This document shows, one piece after another, positions 1-6,561 of a stretch of 6,561 nt of DNA. The stretch spans positions 1 to 6,561 of the forward strand of contig SDNV01000146.1 in assembly GCA_004524515.1 (NCBI GenBank). Direction: 5' to 3'. Source of the stretch: Promethearchaeota archaeon. Lineage in GTDB: Archaea > Asgardarchaeota > Lokiarchaeia > Sigynarchaeales > SOKP01. The notes under the pieces are model-generated. The model saw only the letters and a program-made list of their open reading frames with translations. It was not told the origin of the DNA and ran no database searches. How positions within the stretch are numbered: the stretch's first letter is position 1; every line of letters begins with the position of its first letter. The position numbers and the translations under genes are program-made.

Positions 1-1392
1 CAGCTTGGGCCAAATTTGATCGAATTGTGAGTTATAATTGAAATACGCCATATCCAATTTTTTATTTGCTATTCTAATCGCTTTTTCAAATTTTATGTGA
101 AATTTTCCTATATTTGCTGTGCCCAGAAGGATTAAATCTTGATCATTTTTTTTCTTATCTTCAATAAAAACAAAGTTGTCAGCCCATTTGATAAATCCAA
201 ATGGTCGATATAAGATAATCATATCATTAAAAGTAGAGGCTAAGTTTTTATAGTTAGAGCATACATTATTTATAAGTGTCATATCCAAAGTAATTGGGAA
301 AACATAGGCAGGAAATTTTTTAATTCTATCTTGTTGAATAGTGACGATCTTCATTTTTTCTAAGTTTAAAATATTAGAATCATCCTCTGAATCTAAAATT
401 TTGATTGATATATTTGAATTATGAGTTTTTTTTGAGAGAGAAATAATTATTGGATAAATAGCCGTATTTCTAAATACAGAAAGGGAAGAAATGTCATAGA
501 TTTCTAAGATTTGGGATTCGTTTGTCAATTTTTTTCGTATTTTTTTCCCATAATCAGCTGCTAAGAATTTATTCGTGATAATAAATGATAAATATCCAAA
601 GCGGGGATTAAGAATATCTAATGACTTTTCAGCAAAAAGGATTGATAAATCATATAACCCATAAGCAGTATTGAATTTTTTTAGTTTTTTTTTGTAATCT
701 ATATTTCTCATTTTCTTATTTTCCACATACGGAGGATTTCCCAGAATGATATTAAATTCTTTTGAATTATATTCTAATAAAAAATCTTGATTGCAAATAT
801 TTAATTCTAAATTCAACTGTTTGGAGATCTTGCTGATTTCTTTCCCGATGTTCTTAATCTTTATCTCCATTTTCGATTTTTTTCCTAAATCCTTAACGTA
901 CCACTCGAATAATCTTATTTTTGAAATTGAAAAAGCAAATTTATCAATCTCAACCCCAAAAATGTTATTTTTAAGTATAAGTTCTTTCAGATCTTTATTG
1001 GAATATTCAGGTTTCAATATTTTAAATAATTTTAATAAATTTTCCGCAATTGTAATTAAAAAACTTCCAGATCCGCAACTAGGGTCTAAAATCCTTAAGG
1101 ACGAGGTTTGTTCCCATATTCCTCTTTTATTTTTATCTTTCAGAGAGGCTAATATTTGTAATAATTCATTAAATGATAGTGATTTTTCATATTTCCCTAT
1201 AAGGAGTTCGTTTAAAATATCAACTAAATAAAATTTTAAGATATTTTTAGTTAAAAAATCTGCAAGATTTAATGGAGTATATACAATACCGTTTTGTTGC
1301 CGTTTAAATCGAGAACTATAATTATTTTTTTCTAAAATTTCTAAAATTTCTTCAATTTGGTACGATTTATCGGGTTTTAATGTATCTTTCAT
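1..1392 (-). CDS. Adenine-specific DNA methyltransferase, Eco57I/TaqI-like (C-terminus beyond window)
   Basis: This is a DNA N6-adenine methyltransferase that would transfer a methyl group from SAM to adenine in a specific DNA site. The frame is open from ATG at 1392 to base 1, 464 codons with no stop, so the C-terminus lies outside. The start is fixed: the codon before it is an in-frame TAA. Motifs run in the order of gamma-class enzymes: VYTP near residues 37-40 (motif X), ILDPSCGSGSF at 101-111 (SAM-binding motif I), GVEID at 146-150 (motif II), and NPPY at 219-222 (catalytic motif IV). Residues after about 330 should be the start of the target-recognition part, which I recognise only by position. 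There is no room for an N-terminal nuclease before motif X, unlike classical type IIG fusions. It could be the modification enzyme of a restriction system, a defence-system methylase or a solitary one. Its base composition is very AT-rich, more so than the por genes. Family is firm; role is inferred. Confidence 0.92.
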   Translation of the reverse strand, partial: MKDTLKPDKSYQIEEILEILEKNNYSSRFKRQQNGIVYTPLNLADFLTKNILKFYLVDILNELLIGKYEKSLSFNELLQILASLKDKNKRGIWEQTSSLRILDPSCGSGSFLITIAENLLKLFKILKPEYSNKDLKELILKNNIFGVEIDKFAFSISKIRLFEWYVKDLGKKSKMEIKIKNIGKEISKISKQLNLELNICNQDFLLEYNSKEFNIILGNPPYVENKKMRNIDYKKKLKKFNTAYGLYDLSILFAEKSLDILNPRFGYLSFIITNKFLAADYGKKIRKKLTNESQILEIYDISSLSVFRNTAIYPIIISLSKKTHNSNISIKILDSEDDSNILNLEKMKIVTIQQDRIKKFPAYVFPITLDMTLINNVCSNYKNLASTFNDMIILYRPFGFIKWADNFVFIEDKKKNDQDLILLGTANIGKFHIKFEKAIRIANKKLDMAYFNYNSQFDQIWPKL

Positions 1393-1421
1393 TTATCAAT
1401 CTAAGATAAAACGATTAATTA

Positions 1422-1446
1422 TTAACTATTTATATTAAATAACTAA
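1422..1446. promoter_or_regulatory. Putative bidirectional promoter with imperfect palindrome
   Basis: The 93-bp gap between the divergent DNA methyltransferase (ATG 1392) and phosphatase (ATG 1486) holds an imperfect inverted repeat, TTAACTATTTA then TAAATAACTAA around a 3-bp centre, with 9 of 11 positions pairing. Both halves read as archaeal TATA-like elements (TTTATATT rightward, TTTAATATAAAT leftward). Their distance to the two start codons, about 42 and 52 bases from the centre, would allow short leaders in both directions. In DNA this AT-rich such symmetry may be chance. Confidence 0.35.
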
Positions 1447-1485
1447 CTAAAAATAATGTAATAAAATATTATATCTTTATTTGAA

Positions 1486-2388
1486 ATGGTTGATCAAACC
1501 TTCCTTCAATACCTAATTGAGAACCCCAAAAAGATCTCTGAATTAGAGTTCTCTCAAATTGAAGAGATTTTTGACAAAGCACAACAGATCGTTTCGAACG
1601 AACAAATTATATTAGATTTAAATATAAAAGATAATAATGAATTTTCTTACGTTATTGGAGACATACACGGTAATTTAAGTTCCTTACTTTATTTTATCGA
1701 AAAAATAGAGAAATATCGACCAAATTTCGTGCTTTTTCTTGGAGATATTGTTGATCGGGGAGAATATCAATTAGAATGTCTAATCTTAATTCTCGCATTG
1801 AAAATTCTATCGCCCGATCGTATATTTATAATTAGAGGAAATCATGAAAGTATAGAAATAAATAAAGCTTATGGATTTTATCACGAATTTACTCAGAGAT
1901 TTTTTACTGAGGAAGATTTTAATAAGGTCTTATCATTATATGATGTTTTTCCAATCTGCGCTAAAATAAATAACTCAATTTTATGCGTACATGGAGGAAT
2001 CCCAAAAGATTTTTCAATATTAAAGAAGATCGAGAATAAAATAACTAGTGAATTAAATGTTATATCTAAAGAAGATCGCGATAATCTGTTTCAAATTTTA
2101 TGGAATGATCCTAAAGAAGGATTAAAAGGATTTTCTCATAGTTATAGGGGAAAAGGGATTTATTTCTTCGGAGAAGATGTATTTAATAATTTCTTAGAAG
2201 TCAACGATCTTAACTTCTTAATTAGATCTCACGAATGCTTTCCAGAAGGTTTTAGATGGTTTTTTAATAAGAGATTGTTATCAATTTTCTCATCGGCGGG
2301 ATATAGAGGAGCTAATCCTGCTTCATTTGCAATTATAAAAGGCGATCAAATTTTTCCAGAAAATACTTTCAATTTAAAAAGATTATAG
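1486..2388 (+). CDS. PPP-family Ser/Thr protein phosphatase, eukaryote-like (PP1/PP2A/PP5 type)
   Basis: This is a two-metal phosphoesterase of the PPP superfamily, expected to dephosphorylate Ser/Thr in proteins in the cytoplasm. The full metal-site set is visible in order: GDIHG (58-62; D59, H61), GDIVDRG (86-92; D87, D90, R91), RGNHE (117-121; N119, catalytic H120), VHGG (168-171; H169), and RSHE (247-250; H249). Motifs typical of the eukaryotic catalytic domain are also present: LWNDP (205-209, compare LLWSDP), YRGKGIYFFG (220-229, with R221 equivalent to the phosphate-binding arginine of PP1) and SSAGY (269-273, in place of SAPNY). These make an ApaH or lambda-type enzyme unlikely. At 300 aa it is a bare catalytic domain plus a 50-residue helical N-terminus; no regulatory domain is seen. 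It stands alone and diverges from the DNA methyltransferase. There is no Shine-Dalgarno sequence before ATG 1486, so translation from a short leader is likely. Family assignment is firm; substrates are unknown. Confidence 0.93.
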   Translation: MVDQTFLQYLIENPKKISELEFSQIEEIFDKAQQIVSNEQIILDLNIKDNNEFSYVIGDIHGNLSSLLYFIEKIEKYRPNFVLFLGDIVDRGEYQLECLILILALKILSPDRIFIIRGNHESIEINKAYGFYHEFTQRFFTEEDFNKVLSLYDVFPICAKINNSILCVHGGIPKDFSILKKIENKITSELNVISKEDRDNLFQILWNDPKEGLKGFSHSYRGKGIYFFGEDVFNNFLEVNDLNFLIRSHECFPEGFRWFFNKRLLSIFSSAGYRGANPASFAIIKGDQIFPENTFNLKRL

Positions 2389-2394
2389 AAATCT

Positions 2395-2419
2395 TTCTAA
2401 AAATTAGCTCATTTTAGAA
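2395..2419. terminator. Weak hairpin between convergent genes
   Basis: An 8-bp perfect inverted repeat, TTCTAAAA and TTTTAGAA, surrounds a 9-base loop and starts 7 bases after the phosphatase stop. It has only one G-C pair per eight, so the stem is weak. The position between converging genes suits a transcript-end element for either gene, but archaeal termination relies mainly on U-tracts, so this is a tentative call. Confidence 0.3.
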
Positions 2420-2479
2420 TCTGGAGAGAAGGTTTTTCCAACATTTATATGTCAAAAGGTTCCATATTCTATTTGTTAG

Positions 2480-2499
2480 TTTCATTTTGAAATTTTTTC
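2480..2499 (+). terminator. T-rich tract, possible archaeal terminator for the phosphatase
   Basis: A T-rich run including TTTT and TTTTTT blocks lies about 90 bases beyond the phosphatase stop, just before the end of the converging Sm-like gene. Archaeal RNA polymerase terminates at such U-tracts. No strong hairpin is adjacent. The assignment rests on position and composition only. Confidence 0.3.
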
Positions 2500-2511
2500 A
2501 TCGCATTATTT

Positions 2512-2766
2512 TCACATTAATTCCGAAGCATCCGGTTTAATGAATAACAAATTATTTCCGCGAATGAAAATTTCATTATATTTAGCCACTGGCGCAGAAT
2601 CCATAATTTCAACAGCATCTTCTAAGATCATGTTCATATATGCATCAATTTCTTTTAATAACCCTTTATACTCCGTTCCATCTTTAAGACGCAACATTAT
2701 AGTAGAATTTTGAGCCGCTTGAAGAATATGTAATGGGTTTTTTGACCGTTGGTTATTTTTTTCCAT
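2512..2766 (-). CDS. lsm: Sm-like archaeal RNA-binding protein (SmAP/LSm)
   Basis: This is a small Sm-fold protein expected to assemble into a ring (usually a heptamer) that binds U-rich single-stranded RNA and acts in RNA metabolism. The Sm1 motif covers roughly residues 22-53, with LRLKDGTEYKG (25-35) followed by DAYMNM (41-46); D41 and N45 match the uridine-binding positions. The Sm2 motif IFIRGNN (66-72) contains the conserved R69-G70-N71. At 84 aa it has the usual length, with a short charged N-terminal tail before the first helix (about 12-20). ATG 2766 is the only plausible start: an in-frame TGA lies three codons upstream (2773-2775). No L37e ribosomal gene follows, although that pairing is common in other archaea. 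The gene stands alone between two oppositely oriented neighbours, so it should have its own promoter in the 2767-2889 gap. Confidence 0.95.
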   Translation of the reverse strand: MEKNNQRSKNPLHILQAAQNSTIMLRLKDGTEYKGLLKEIDAYMNMILEDAVEIMDSAPVAKYNEIFIRGNNLLFIKPDASELM

Positions 2767-2836
2767 AATAAATCAATTAAATCTAGTAATTAATATTAAA
2801 AACAATATCTTAAAGATAAACTTTTTTGAATTAAAA

Positions 2837-2856
2837 CCTTATTATCAGTTATAAGG
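2837..2856. promoter_or_regulatory. Palindrome in the divergent lsm/methyltransferase promoter region
   Basis: CCTTAT (2837-2842) and ATAAGG (2851-2856) form a perfect 6-bp inverted repeat with an 8-base spacer; one further pair in the spacer also matches. The right half, TTATAAGG, lies 34-41 bases upstream of the TTG start of the methyltransferase, where an archaeal TATA box would sit. The repeat could therefore be an operator overlapping that promoter. There is no independent evidence that a regulator binds. Confidence 0.3.
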
Positions 2857-2889
2857 CTACTTAAAAGAAATTTGTAAAAATTTGAAGAT

Positions 2890-3465
2890 TTGACAACTGA
2901 TAAAAAAAAATCCATTATAGATAAATATAACGCCTCTTCTCAATCTTATGATGCAAGGTATAATATAATCCAAAGAGAAAAATTTGAGTTTGTTTTAAAC
3001 CAATTTAATTTCTCTAAAAAGTTAGTGTTAGATGCGGGTTGTGGAACAGGACTCTTATACGATTTTATATCTATTAATAAGTCTAAACAACGAGCACAAT
3101 TTTTATCTCTCGACATTTCTTGGGGAATGTTAATAGAGTTGAAAAATAAACAGAGATTAGTGAAAAAAAAAGTTTTCATTTTACCTATATTATCAGATAT
3201 CGAACACATGCCAATAAGAAATAATATCTTTGATGCGATTGTTTCATTTACTTCATTTCAAAACTTATCAAAAATAAAGAAAGGCTTTTTAGAGGTAGTA
3301 AGAGTTTCTAAACCAAGAGCAGAAATAATCTTATCAATTTTAAAGAAGGATAAACGCATAAATTTATTTATTTCATTCATTAAGCCTTTTTTTAGTGAAT
3401 TTAGAAAACTAAACAATAAAAATTTAGAGGATATCATTATATATGGAATATTATTAAAAGATTGA
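2890..3465 (+). CDS. Class I SAM-dependent methyltransferase (Methyltransf_11/UbiE-like)
   Basis: This is a small soluble methyltransferase with the Rossmann-type SAM fold; the substrate cannot be told. Visible motifs: VLDAGCGTGL (46-55, SAM-binding motif I), SLDIS (73-77; D75 as the acidic residue contacting the SAM ribose), SDIEHMP (102-108, motif III) and FDAIVSF (114-120, motif IV). A helix and strand typical of Methyltransf_11 proteins follow (LEVVRVSKPRAEIILSI, 134-150). At 191 aa it is on the short side, with a brief basic C-terminal tail. TTG 2890 is the only usable start: an in-frame TAA lies at 2875-2877, there is no ATG between, and the next internal Met (residue 80) is already past motif I. 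The codon is weak and no strong ribosome-binding site precedes it, so expression may be low. Its stop is 7 bp from that of the converging rio2 gene. Confidence 0.88.
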   Translation: MTTDKKKSIIDKYNASSQSYDARYNIIQREKFEFVLNQFNFSKKLVLDAGCGTGLLYDFISINKSKQRAQFLSLDISWGMLIELKNKQRLVKKKVFILPILSDIEHMPIRNNIFDAIVSFTSFQNLSKIKKGFLEVVRVSKPRAEIILSILKKDKRINLFISFIKPFFSEFRKLNNKNLEDIIIYGILLKD

Positions 3466-3472
3466 AGTCGGT

Positions 3473-4351
3473 TCACTTGTAAAAACTTTTTATGATATCA
3501 TCAACGTTACTATATAGATTAAATTTTTTCTCGAAATAATTACATAAATTTGCTATATCTCTTTCTAAAATAGATTTAGCATTAGGATGATCACTATGAA
3601 TAGATTGAAGCCAATCAATTATAAGAATATTTCCTTTTTCATCAAGAACGATGTTAAATTCTCCTAAATCTCCATGTATAAGCTGGGCGTTTTGGAATAT
3701 CTTTTTCACTTGTTTCAATATTTTGTTAAAAATTTTTTTTGGATTATGGATCTCTTTAAAATAAATTAATTCTTTTCCCCTTAAGTAATTCATAACAATC
3801 ATATGCCTATTGTAGGCTATAGGTTTTGGAGTGTCCAATTTGAGTTTATAAATTTCTTCTAATGCTTCGAATTCTTTTTTTGCAGCTAATCTATTTACAT
3901 AAAGCCAAGATATATGTCCCCTATCCCCAATAATATCCCTTAAATTTTTTATATTTTTAAAACTTGTTCTACCCATTCGATAAACTTTTAATGCAAAGAT
4001 ATTTTCATTATTATCCATACAACTATAAACATCAGACTCTTTTCCTTTACCTATAAGTGGTCCTAATTGACTAATGATATTCATCTCCACGAGTGAATGA
4101 AGAGCTAAAATATCATAACCAATAGAATTAAGAGTATAAGCTGTTTCATATGAAGAGGAATCTCTAATTATTAAATCAAATTTGTGAACTTTTTTCAATC
4201 GAAATAAAGTCTCTTCCATTGGATATCGCGCATAAAACTTGATATTATTGATTGTGACATATTCAGATCTTTTCATACCCAGTTCAATTGCCATTAAAAT
4301 CCGGAGATCTTCCTTTTGCAGTTCTGTTAATAGTTTGGCAGCTTCAGCCAT
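3473..4351 (-). CDS. rio2: RIO2-family atypical protein kinase/ATPase
   Basis: This is a RIO2 kinase, which in archaea and eukaryotes acts on the pre-40S/30S ribosomal particle during small-subunit maturation. An N-terminal winged-helix region (about 1-90), diagnostic of RIO2 rather than RIO1, is followed by the kinase fold. Kinase features: P-loop GKGKESDVY (101-109), ATP-binding lysine K122 in FALKVYR, the RIO2-typical GRTSFKNIKNLRD (127-139), hinge VMNYLRGKEL (186-195), catalytic loop HGDLGEFN (226-233; D228, N233) and metal-binding D246 in IIDWLQ. The following DHPNAKSILERD (254-265) matches RIO2 sequences. The length, 292 aa, is normal for the archaeal form. IIDWLQ differs from the commoner IDFPQ/IDWPQ. 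ATG 4351 is preceded by an in-frame TAA nine codons upstream with no other start between. It lies 59 bp after the gelsolin-like gene on the same strand and may be partly co-transcribed with it. Confidence 0.95.
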   Translation of the reverse strand: MAEAAKLLTELQKEDLRILMAIELGMKRSEYVTINNIKFYARYPMEETLFRLKKVHKFDLIIRDSSSYETAYTLNSIGYDILALHSLVEMNIISQLGPLIGKGKESDVYSCMDNNENIFALKVYRMGRTSFKNIKNLRDIIGDRGHISWLYVNRLAAKKEFEALEEIYKLKLDTPKPIAYNRHMIVMNYLRGKELIYFKEIHNPKKIFNKILKQVKKIFQNAQLIHGDLGEFNIVLDEKGNILIIDWLQSIHSDHPNAKSILERDIANLCNYFEKKFNLYSNVDDIIKSFYK

Positions 4352-4382
4352 ACTATTAATTTCTAATTTTCTAATTTAAAAA

Positions 4383-4395
4383 ATTTATTATAAGG
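4383..4395 (-). promoter_or_regulatory. rio2: TATA-like element upstream of rio2
   Basis: On the minus strand CCTTATAATAAAT lies about 32-44 bases before ATG 4351, a suitable distance for an archaeal TATA box driving a short-leader transcript. Its first eight bases, CCTTATAA, also occur on the minus strand at 2849-2856 upstream of the Sm-like gene. Weak evidence; AT-rich DNA gives many such matches. Confidence 0.35.
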
Positions 4396-4410
4396 TCAAA
4401 ATCATGTATT

Positions 4411-5190
4411 TTAGAAAATAAATTGCTTATAAGTCTTAAAAAAAAACATTACTTTAATGAATGAAGGAAATATAAATAATAACGTGGAGAATGATAATAA
4501 CAAAAGAAAAAGAATCAGATCACTCGTTTTAATTAGGTAAGTTAAAGAATCAGATCCTGACTGAAACAAGAAAAGAAAAATACCTTGTTGTAAATAGAGA
4601 ATCATGCTAATGCTAATAATTAATCCAGCTAAAGAAATGACAATTGCTTGTACATCATATTCATAAATACTTATAGCAAAAAGAATGCTGAGGAAACTTA
4701 TTATCACTACAAGTAAAACTTTTGAAATGTTCAACCAGTACATGTAAGTAGTAGCCGAAATCATAAAATTTAGGCTTGACATTGGCCAATATATTGCACT
4801 CCAAAGAGAGATTAAATATATTATAAACAAGGTTAATGCAACCAATGAAAGGAAGAAATAACTCCGAATAGTTATAAAATGAGTAAATTCGTATTTTTCT
4901 AAGTTTTCTTCTCTCTTAACAGATTCCAAAAGAAGATCTAATCTATTTTTAATTTGAGGAGGCACGTGTTTATTTAGAACAATGATTTCAATATCATGAA
5001 AAGTAGATATCAGTTCATTTAAGGATTTTATTCCCTTTTCTAAAGCGTTTTTAGTGCTTTTTGGTCCTTTCCATAAATATATTTTACTGAAATTGTCATC
5101 TAATATTGCACAAATATCATGAAAAAGCAGTTCATGCTCTTCTTCAATCCAAGTATTATTGATAGCGTTATATATATATGTTCGAAGCAT
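4411..5190 (-). CDS. Gelsolin-like domain protein with about four C-terminal transmembrane helices
   Basis: I infer a membrane protein with a cytosolic gelsolin-like head. Residues 1-90 fit one gelsolin repeat: an opening strand (TYIYNAINNTWIEEE, 4-18), then HDICAILDD (24-32, compare the GDxxxLDD core), SKIYLWKG (35-42, the hallmark IYxWxG strand), a long helix (about 44-64), the strand IEIIVLN (67-73) and a final helix (80-92). A charged linker leads to hydrophobic segments at about 111-134, 155-176, 181-208 and 222-250, which look like four transmembrane helices; the 222-250 segment is long and may be more than one. No signal peptide is seen, so the head should face the cytoplasm. Gelsolin-domain proteins that act on actin are known from Asgard archaea; this membrane fusion is not a form I can name. 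The start is fixed, since an in-frame TAA directly precedes ATG 5190. It sits between porB and rio2 on the same strand. The membrane part is clear; the gelsolin call needs a profile or structure check. Confidence 0.72.
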   Translation of the reverse strand: MLRTYIYNAINNTWIEEEHELLFHDICAILDDNFSKIYLWKGPKSTKNALEKGIKSLNELISTFHDIEIIVLNKHVPPQIKNRLDLLLESVKREENLEKYEFTHFITIRSYFFLSLVALTLFIIYLISLWSAIYWPMSSLNFMISATTYMYWLNISKVLLVVIISFLSILFAISIYEYDVQAIVISLAGLIISISMILYLQQGIFLFLFQSGSDSLTYLIKTSDLILFLLLLSFSTLLFIFPSFIKVMFFFKTYKQFIF

Positions 5191-5213
5191 TTAAATCAAG
5201 ATAAGTAGTAATA

Positions 5214-5228
5214 AATCATATAATTTTT
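5214..5228 (-). promoter_or_regulatory. Possible TATA box of the gelsolin-like gene
   Basis: Minus-strand GAAAAATTATATGAT lies about 24-38 bases before ATG 5190 in the 78-bp gap after porB. This spacing would give a leaderless or nearly leaderless transcript, in line with the lack of a ribosome-binding site there. The gap otherwise holds nothing recognisable. Confidence 0.3.
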
Positions 5229-5268
5229 CAATAATTTTAGTCTTTTTCTATAAATAAGATTGAAATAA

Positions 5269-6165
5269 TTAAATATTCATTCTTTGTTCAATTTCAGCCC
5301 ATAGATTATTAATGTAGGATTTATAGTTATTGATATCATCTTCAGTGATAGATTTAAACCTTTTTTGTGCTTTTAAATAATCTTCAATCGGTTTTCGCTT
5401 ATCTTGATTTAGAAATCGCTTGCTGTCTTTTGATAGGTTAAATTTACCATCAATTACTTCATATAATGGCCAAAATCCTGTTTGCACAGCTAGTCTCCCT
5501 ATTTCTATCGATTTAGAGGGATCATAACCCCAACCAGGAGGACAAGGTGCTAATATGTGAATGTATTTCGGACCCACAATTGATTTTGCTTTAGTAAACT
5601 TCTCATATAAATCTAAAGGAAATGCTGAGATTGCAGTCGCTATGTAGGGAATTCCATGAGCTTCCAAAATTTTTGGCATGTTCTTTTTGTATCCTGTTTT
5701 GCCATCGGGTGTTGTGGTAGTAAAAGCTCCAGGTGGGGTACTTCCACTTCTTTGAACTCCAGTATTCATGTATGCTTCGTTATCATAACAAGCAAAAATA
5801 AAGTCTGTCCCTCTCTCAACTGCACCGCTTAGGCTTTGAATTCCAATATCTACTGTTCCTCCATCACCTGCAAAAGCGACAACGTTGATATCTTTTTCCA
5901 ATCCTTTATCTTCAAGGGATGCTACAATGCCTGAAGCAGATGCTCCCGTAGTTGCGAAGGGAGTATGAAGTACTGAAACCTTTGTAGTACAAAATCCTTG
6001 CATTCCATGAAGGACTGTGAGACAGCTAGCAGGTACAGTTATGATTGTTTTTGGTCCTAAAGCTTTTAACGCAATTCTATAAATTAAAGCCATGGAACAG
6101 CCAGCACATGCTCGAGTACCTGGATAAATAAATTCTTCCTCGGGTATATCCATTACATTTACCAT
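5269..6165 (-). CDS. porB: Pyruvate (2-oxoacid):ferredoxin oxidoreductase, beta subunit
   Basis: This is the thiamine-pyrophosphate-binding subunit of pyruvate:ferredoxin oxidoreductase, which with the alpha subunit decarboxylates pyruvate to acetyl-CoA and CO2 (or runs in reverse for CO2 fixation) with ferredoxin as carrier. TPP/Mg motif: GDGGT (100-104) followed by DNEAYMNTGVQRSGSTP (128-144), the signature of pyruvate-type beta subunits. Cysteines C20 and C23 (CAGC), C48 (ASCL) and C208 (PCPPGW) match the ligands of the beta-subunit 4Fe-4S cluster. The length, 298 aa, is normal. ATG 6165 is preferred over the internal ATG 6153 because GGTGA lies 7 bases before it. It begins 3 bp after porA, a clear operon. 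The C-terminal 40 residues are charged and helical. Another 2-oxoacid cannot be ruled out, but the YMNTGxQRSxSTP pattern favours pyruvate. Confidence 0.96.
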   Translation of the reverse strand: MVNVMDIPEEEFIYPGTRACAGCSMALIYRIALKALGPKTIITVPASCLTVLHGMQGFCTTKVSVLHTPFATTGASASGIVASLEDKGLEKDINVVAFAGDGGTVDIGIQSLSGAVERGTDFIFACYDNEAYMNTGVQRSGSTPPGAFTTTTPDGKTGYKKNMPKILEAHGIPYIATAISAFPLDLYEKFTKAKSIVGPKYIHILAPCPPGWGYDPSKSIEIGRLAVQTGFWPLYEVIDGKFNLSKDSKRFLNQDKRKPIEDYLKAQKRFKSITEDDINNYKSYINNLWAEIEQRMNI

Positions 6166-6168
6166 TTT

Positions 6169-6561
6169 TTAATCACCATTATAAAAATTAGATTCATCAT
6201 AATTTTGTAATTCTGCTAGTTTTACGCCTAAAAACTCGGTTTTATTGGAGATCTCTCCTTTCTTCTCAGCTTCAATGCTTTTTTGAACGCCTTCAAGAAT
6301 ATGATTTGTTGTAACATCTCTCCCTCCTAATCCAACAATGAAACCTTTTATGAATGGAGGATTTTTCAATCCAAATAATGCAGATTTTAATTCATAACTC
6401 AACACGCCTTCATAACCATAGCCAATATCTCTATCGAAAACAACAATATTACTTGTCTCCTTAAAGAACTCCCTTAAAGAAGCCGCAGGAAATGGTCTAA
6501 ACATTTTTAAGCTCAATAAACCAACTTGTAACCCGTTAGCTCGAAGTTTAGGAATGGCTAC
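6169..6561 (-). CDS. porA: Pyruvate (2-oxoacid):ferredoxin oxidoreductase, alpha subunit, C-terminal part
   Basis: These are the last 130 residues of the alpha subunit; the frame is open to the right edge, so the N-terminus, including the conserved core, lies outside. The visible part begins VAIPKLRANGLQVGLLSLKM, followed by FRPFP, which is the family's conserved kLRxxGxxVGLLxLxxFRPFP stretch. It continues with VVFDRDIGYGYEG, matching the C-terminal domain that packs against the beta subunit, and VGLGGRDVT. An internal TTG at 6514-6516 falls inside this conserved stretch and is not a start. The stop at 6169-6171 is 3 bp from porB. Gamma and delta subunits are probably upstream, to the right. 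Confidence 0.94.
   Translation of the reverse strand, partial: VAIPKLRANGLQVGLLSLKMFRPFPAASLREFFKETSNIVVFDRDIGYGYEGVLSYELKSALFGLKNPPFIKGFIVGLGGRDVTTNHILEGVQKSIEAEKKGEISNKTEFLGVKLAELQNYDESNFYNGD
6173..6177 (-). promoter_or_regulatory. porB: Shine-Dalgarno site for porB
   Basis: GGTGA, complementary to the 16S rRNA 3' end, lies within the last codons of porA and 7 bases before the porB ATG. It decides the porB start and suggests coupled translation. It is the only clear ribosome-binding site in the window, and it serves an internal operon gene. Confidence 0.6.

Follow-up and report, generated by a model that had tools for sequence, protein, structure and literature searches.

A membrane gelsolin gene in the window

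The stretch of DNA analyzed here (the window) comprises positions 1 to 6,561 of the Promethearchaeota contig SDNV01000146.1, and features were located on both of its strands (Table 1). Its principal feature is a gene whose 259-amino-acid (aa) product joins a gelsolin-like N-terminal head to a four-helix membrane part, a real and conserved architecture for which we found no description. An earlier note, made from the sequence of the window, had proposed both halves of this protein, and both are borne out: the head by its predicted fold, a Foldseek search headed by the Asgard protein ProGel, profile searches, and hhalign comparisons with 12 negative controls; the membrane anchor by the helices of an AlphaFold2 (AF2) model and by hydropathy, which gives four segments in the window protein. 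Lokiarchaea are microbes related to the ancestors of eukaryotic cells, and the gene may tie their cell skeleton to their membrane.

Table 1. Genes of the window and features of the membrane gelsolin
Feature	Position	Strand	Remarks
Membrane gelsolin gene	4411..5190	-	259 aa, ATG to stop
Gelsolin (ProGel-like) head, residues 1-92, predicted cytosolic	4915..5190	-	AF2 model, structure and profile searches
Asp25, presumed counterpart of the Asp in the type II calcium site	5116..5118	-	Invariant, 46/46
KIYLWKG, residues 36-42, gelsolin signature strand	5065..5085	-	W40 36/36 and G42 36/36 in core set
Transmembrane helix 1, residues 105-134	4789..4878	-	AF2
Transmembrane helix 2, residues 146-177	4660..4755	-	AF2
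Transmembrane helix 3, residues 180-206	4573..4653	-	AF2
Transmembrane helix 4 with basic end, residues 222-258	4417..4527	-	AF2 and C-terminal charge
2-Oxoacid:ferredoxin oxidoreductase (OFOR) alpha	6169..6561	-	Partial gene, cut by window end; PorA_Arch 1.8e-24, under its cut-off
OFOR beta	5269..6165	-	Conserved upstream neighbor
RIO2-type kinase	3473..4351	-	Conserved downstream neighbor; Pfam RIO1 6.8e-50, Rio2_N 1e-18
Methyltransferase	2890..3465	+	
LSM protein	2512..2766	-	Pfam 1e-20; belongs to conserved block
Metallophosphatase	1486..2388	+	
Eco57I-type DNA methylase	1..1392	-	Cut by window edge

The head is a single gelsolin-homology domain

In the AF2 model of the whole protein (predicted local distance difference test score [pLDDT] of 85.5, predicted template modeling score [pTM] of 0.59), residues 1-92 adopt the five-stranded gelsolin fold that the earlier note anticipated, with strands at residues 2-8, 13-16, 26-31, 36-41, and 68-71 and helices at 47-61 and 78-99. 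The best Foldseek match to the head is Thorarchaeal ProGel (7c2f_B, from an actin complex), gelsolin chains occupy ranks 1 to 40, and template modeling (TM) scores by target are 0.71 to ProGel and about 0.5 to other single domains. The characteristic motifs, D25..L30-D31-D32 and K36-I-Y-L-W-K-G42, were followed through a core set (the window protein plus 35 Loki loci; n = 36) and 10 divergent members, 46 sequences in total. Asp25, Trp40, and Gly42 are each present in 36/36 core sequences, so that the expectation that homologs keep the IYxWxG strand holds throughout the core; among the divergent members, Asp25 and Gly42 are both retained in 10/10, but the Trp column is Trp in only five, with Tyr in three and Leu and Phe in one each.

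Profile comparisons lead to the same superfamily. A profile of the close family matches gelsolin at an E value of 0.0017, and a profile that includes divergent members matches villin (4.7e-9) and gelsolin (3.2e-7), each value being a sum over multiple domains, as well as the single-domain ProGel 7c2f (4.1e-7). By hhalign, 25 heads align with 32 soluble Asgard gelsolin domains at 98.1% (E value of 1.1e-13), and the core heads alone do so at 97.0% across 45 columns; by soluble group, the heads score 98.0% with coiled-coil gelsolins, 97.1% with ProGel, 94.8% with 200-aa proteins, 94.4% with proteins of 300 or more aa, and 89.8% with 2DGel. As controls, 12 neighbor-gene clusters were aligned, each represented by residues 1-95 of no more than 25 members. 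None of these alignments exceeded 3.0%, and the membrane part scored 0.8% against the soluble gelsolins. The soluble set used for these controls held 36 rows, including four motif-matching non-gelsolins, and without those four (32 rows) the heads still score 98.1%. With its five-stranded sheet, its two helices (one of them long), the IYxWxG strand, and profile homology to the superfamily, the head qualifies as one gelsolin-homology domain and belongs to the ProGel (Asgard cofilin-like) type.

Membrane part and topology

Modeled alone (AF2, 40 rows), the membrane part forms four long helices with a pLDDT of 94.6 and a pTM of 0.85. Simple hydropathy detects three to five segments across the 46 sequences (four in 33 of them) and none in the head. 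The membrane part has no match in the PDB at an E value of ≤0.001, and the structural matches to residues 100-259 alone are generic bundles. Averaged over the 36 core members, residues 93-109 contain 4.6 Lys plus Arg and the C terminus 2.6 (with 0.1 Asp plus Glu); the two predicted outer loops have 0.4 and 0.9. From this pattern, both termini are predicted to lie inside, and the head to face the cytosol. The corresponding Lys-plus-Arg means for the 10 divergent members are 2.6 before transmembrane helix 1; 0.7, 2.0, and 1.2 in the loops; and 7.5 in the C-terminal tail.

Distribution and relationship to known gelsolins

The family alignment holds 38 rows, including the window protein, at an E value of ≤0.01, and scanning a single genome from each species gave 36 loci, every one titled Lokiarchaeota or Lokiarchaeia. 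When the family profile was run over 227 genomes of the phylum, 69 matched at an E value of ≤1e-3. The same fusion, which the earlier note proposed to look for, does occur in other Asgard genomes, and the family is present in 63 of the 227 (E value of ≤1.1e-9), with strong matches in 52 (≤3.7e-50); the 63 include one genome with a truncated or chimeric open reading frame (ORF) (G048), one with the membrane part only (G131), and one in which the gene is split between two frames (G105). The other six genomes have weak matches only (2.3e-4 to 6.7e-4), and two of those places (L107 and L108) are ProGel-like. Divergent members, where complete, are 233 to 316 aa long and retain the head and the hydrophobic helices.

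No NCBIfam model matches the 259-aa product at an E value of ≤0.01, and the Pfam gelsolin model (PF00626) matches 21 of the 38 family members at an E value of ≤1, at best at 7.5e-4. In six Loki genomes, the 26 places found by PF00626 do not include the membrane gelsolin gene, and gelsolin counts made with this model would therefore overlook it. Hydropathy detected no membrane segment in any of 28 soluble gelsolin-type proteins, drawn from those PF00626 finds and a further soluble set.

The membrane gelsolin shares with Thorarchaeal ProGel, its nearest fold match, a single gelsolin domain, but ProGel is soluble and about 94 aa long, and only the head of the 259-aa, four-helix protein resembles it. 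The gelsolin/villin/CapG/adseverin proteins have the domain fold, the IYxWxG strand, and the calcium-site Asp in common with it, but they are soluble, calcium-regulated, and built of three to six domains, whereas the membrane gelsolin has one repeat and its core members lack the type II Glu. The 2DGels of Loki, Heim, and Thor (PMC9433394) likewise consist of gelsolin-homology domains and occur in the same six genomes, but they have two soluble domains, calcium residues, and a WH2-like linker, and their profile match to the heads is weaker (78 to 90%). That source also lists 1DGelX proteins, two in MK-D1 and three in GC14_75, which by name have one gelsolin domain and another part; this family could overlap with the membrane gelsolins. 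In the titles and abstract openings of the literature on gelsolins and on archaetidylinositol, a scope that leaves out most subscription papers, we found no description of an Asgard membrane gelsolin. The claim that no described family has this layout thus agrees with the literature covered but is unproven with respect to 1DGelX. Within those same sources, a membrane-embedded member joins a domain family whose Asgard representatives otherwise appear soluble.

Calcium site

We take Asp25 to correspond to the aspartate of the type II calcium site in human gelsolin G1. The column of the type II Glu lies nine residues past the signature Trp and holds Glu in 9/9 2DGel domains and Lys, Arg, or Gln in the remaining 23 soluble Asgard domains; it is Lys in the ProGel-like L107 and L108. 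None of the 36 core sequences has Glu there: the residue is Lys or Arg in 35 and Ala in the window protein. Because the type II Glu is gone from the core family, its members are predicted from sequence to be calcium independent. For comparison, PMC9433394, in which ProGel is named Asgard cofilin, reports calcium-dependent actin activity in the MKD1 and Heim 2DGels and little activity in the Loki GC14_75 2DGel.

A paralog next to a synthase-like gene

A profile of a paralogous membrane gelsolin (A5) recovered 16 full-length genes from the 227 genomes and matches 24 genomes at an E value of ≤1e-3 when fragments and weak matches are counted; G148 and G150 have partial paralogs. The paralog heads align by hhalign with coiled-coil gelsolins at 96.0%, ProGel at 91.4%, a mixed soluble set at 89.1%, and the core heads at 96.4%. 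At all 16 full-length loci (L102, L106, and L138 to L151), a CDP-alcohol phosphatidyltransferase gene lies directly 3' of the paralog on the same strand, 8 to 33 nucleotides (nt) away, and the catalytic motif DGxxAR...GxxxDxxxD is intact in every one of these enzymes. A further locus, L152 (genome G094), has a 107-aa ORF for the head only, with a synthase-like gene on the opposite strand. On another branch (L101, L104, and L105), an enzyme gene of this type lies 1.1 to 2.6 kb away on the same strand at 3/3 loci.

The top NCBIfam model for the two enzymes tested is archaetidylinositol phosphate synthase, at 126 and 127 bits, and among 12 genomes tested, each of which has two to six matches to this model, the gelsolin-linked genes score 117 to 138 bits; the cut-off is 180, and the assignment of a substrate is accordingly provisional. 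The 16 loci have flanking genes in common, one group also bearing Ras GTPase, PhoU, and PHO4 genes around the pair, and the gelsolin-synthase pair is therefore largely one inherited arrangement. We rejected the idea that the pair moves between surroundings: both locus groups share a gene cluster (c2) and, farther off, a riboflavin-kinase cluster (c3).

Proposed function

The Loki actin cytoskeleton spans cell bodies and protrusions beneath a single membrane, according to PMC9834061, and the membrane gelsolin is a single-gene candidate for holding that actin at the membrane. Actin genes are present in 6/6 genomes tested, and since the nearest kin of the head are actin-binding domains, ProGel-like actin binding is favored. 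On balance, and by a little more than even expectation, we infer actin binding and regard the protein as a gelsolin of the ProGel kind that is embedded in the membrane and, on its inner face, keeps actin in place or regulates it. Without needing calcium, the head would bind monomeric actin or the barbed ends of filaments, so that actin might be held, capped, or recycled there, with the head acting as a tether, a barbed-end cap, or a monomer sink; in the wider family, the association of paralog and synthase-like gene suggests that inositol lipids may take part on the membrane side. A cytoskeletal role is a strong hypothesis, and the soluble head makes the protein amenable to expression and to assays with Lokiactin.

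A number of results weigh against this interpretation or parts of it. The Pfam gelsolin match of the window protein (16.7 bits, E value of 0.0068) falls short of the gathering cut-off of 21; the divergent-inclusive profile also retrieves a non-gelsolin row, 9ivk_A, at 1.8e-4 (over the membrane part) and three more at 0.14 to 0.94; and the heads of L102/L106 and of L103, taken alone, align weakly with soluble gelsolins (74.3% and 59.1%). The pTM of the whole-protein model leaves the orientation of the head to the membrane loose, and the short loop that joins helices 2 and 3 on the inner side (Lys plus Arg 0.2, Asp plus Glu 1.8 in the 36 core members) gives the topology no support. With regard to calcium, the clade of the window protein lacks Lys and Arg at position 49 (Ala in the protein itself; Thr, Ser, or Asn in its nearest relatives), and the 10 divergent members have Glu in two, Asp in three, and other residues in the rest. 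Against a role for lipids, there is no synthase-like gene within the 36 core loci, so that the lipid link rests on the paralogs, whose heads match 2DGel at 0.2% and whose membrane parts match those of the core at 55.7%. Finally, the helix positions matching those that contact actin in human G1 are polar and variable (residue 55 is mostly Lys, Glu, Ser, Asp, Asn, or Gln), and the fixed neighbors OFOR, RIO2, and LSM are housekeeping genes.

These last two observations fit an alternative that we consider possible, though we would not expect it to hold: the head kept the gelsolin fold but lost actin binding and became a cytosolic dock for another protein, with the membrane part doing the main work. 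The gelsolin-like domain of Sec23/Sec24, a protein-docking domain, offers a precedent, and the membrane part is conserved at least as well as the head, containing 8 of the 13 invariant columns among 32 sequences. However, the closest relatives of the head by structure and profile are the actin-binding ProGel and gelsolin/villin domains, and every genome tested carries actin.

It is improbable that the protein is instead a scaffold or regulator of inositol-phospholipid synthesis whose head senses a lipid or an enzyme rather than actin. The tight pairing of paralog and catalytically intact synthase-like gene at all 16 loci, and the nearby same-strand enzyme genes of the L101, L104, and L105 branch, speak for such a role, but the loci of the window's own subfamily lack the gene, the enzyme genes occur in two genomes (G003 and G006) that have no full-length paralog, the name of the enzyme comes from scores under the cut-off, and the shared flanks reduce the 16 loci largely to one inheritance. 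That a small alpha/beta domain came to resemble gelsolin by chance or convergence is scarcely credible: the weak single-sequence Pfam match and the moderate TM scores would allow it, but the hhalign alignment with its 12 negative controls, the profile match to the single ProGel domain, and the unbroken run of gelsolin chains in Foldseek all contradict it.

Eukaryotic gelsolin is controlled by phosphoinositides, and the paralog with its inositol-lipid enzyme gene opens the question of when actin control became tied to membrane inositol lipids. The broadest version of our proposal, that integral-membrane, calcium-independent Loki gelsolins tether actin to the cell membrane and that in at least one branch the gelsolin and an inositol-phospholipid synthase share an operon, a link of membrane, actin, and inositol lipids predating eukaryotes, would be an unlikely but conceivable outcome.

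Gene neighborhoods

The genes around the membrane gelsolin are conserved in order. RIO2 kinase is the next gene downstream in 35 of the 36 named Loki loci, at a distance of 7 to 171 nt (10 to 174 counting the stop codon), and OFOR beta lies directly upstream in 35/36, at 32 to 164 nt; at L034, three opposite ORFs precede RIO2, and L036 is cut. The divergent L093 and L095 are still near RIO2, OFOR, and methyltransferase genes, and L095 is near LSM as well.

Other associations were seen at individual loci. A truncated membrane-gelsolin head joined, by eye, to an EamA-type-like transporter (L097:1826-2962, minus strand) is probably chimeric or decayed. Genes for TFIIB-like proteins or TBP lie directly upstream of the divergent membrane gelsolins of L096 (5025-5924), L098 (5755-6672), and L102 (4101-4757), and an ORF for an E2 ubiquitin-conjugating enzyme (PF00179) immediately follows the membrane gelsolin at L101 (3970-4563, minus strand) and L104 (5842-6366, plus strand). 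The third gene downstream at L101, on the same strand (743-3142, minus), encodes 799 aa that by eye comprise a gelsolin-like head, a long coiled coil, and a proline-rich tail, and an ORF at L110 resembles it. The Eco57I-type DNA methylase cluster occurs near membrane gelsolins at 27 core-block loci, including the window, and at the divergent L096, L098, and L099.
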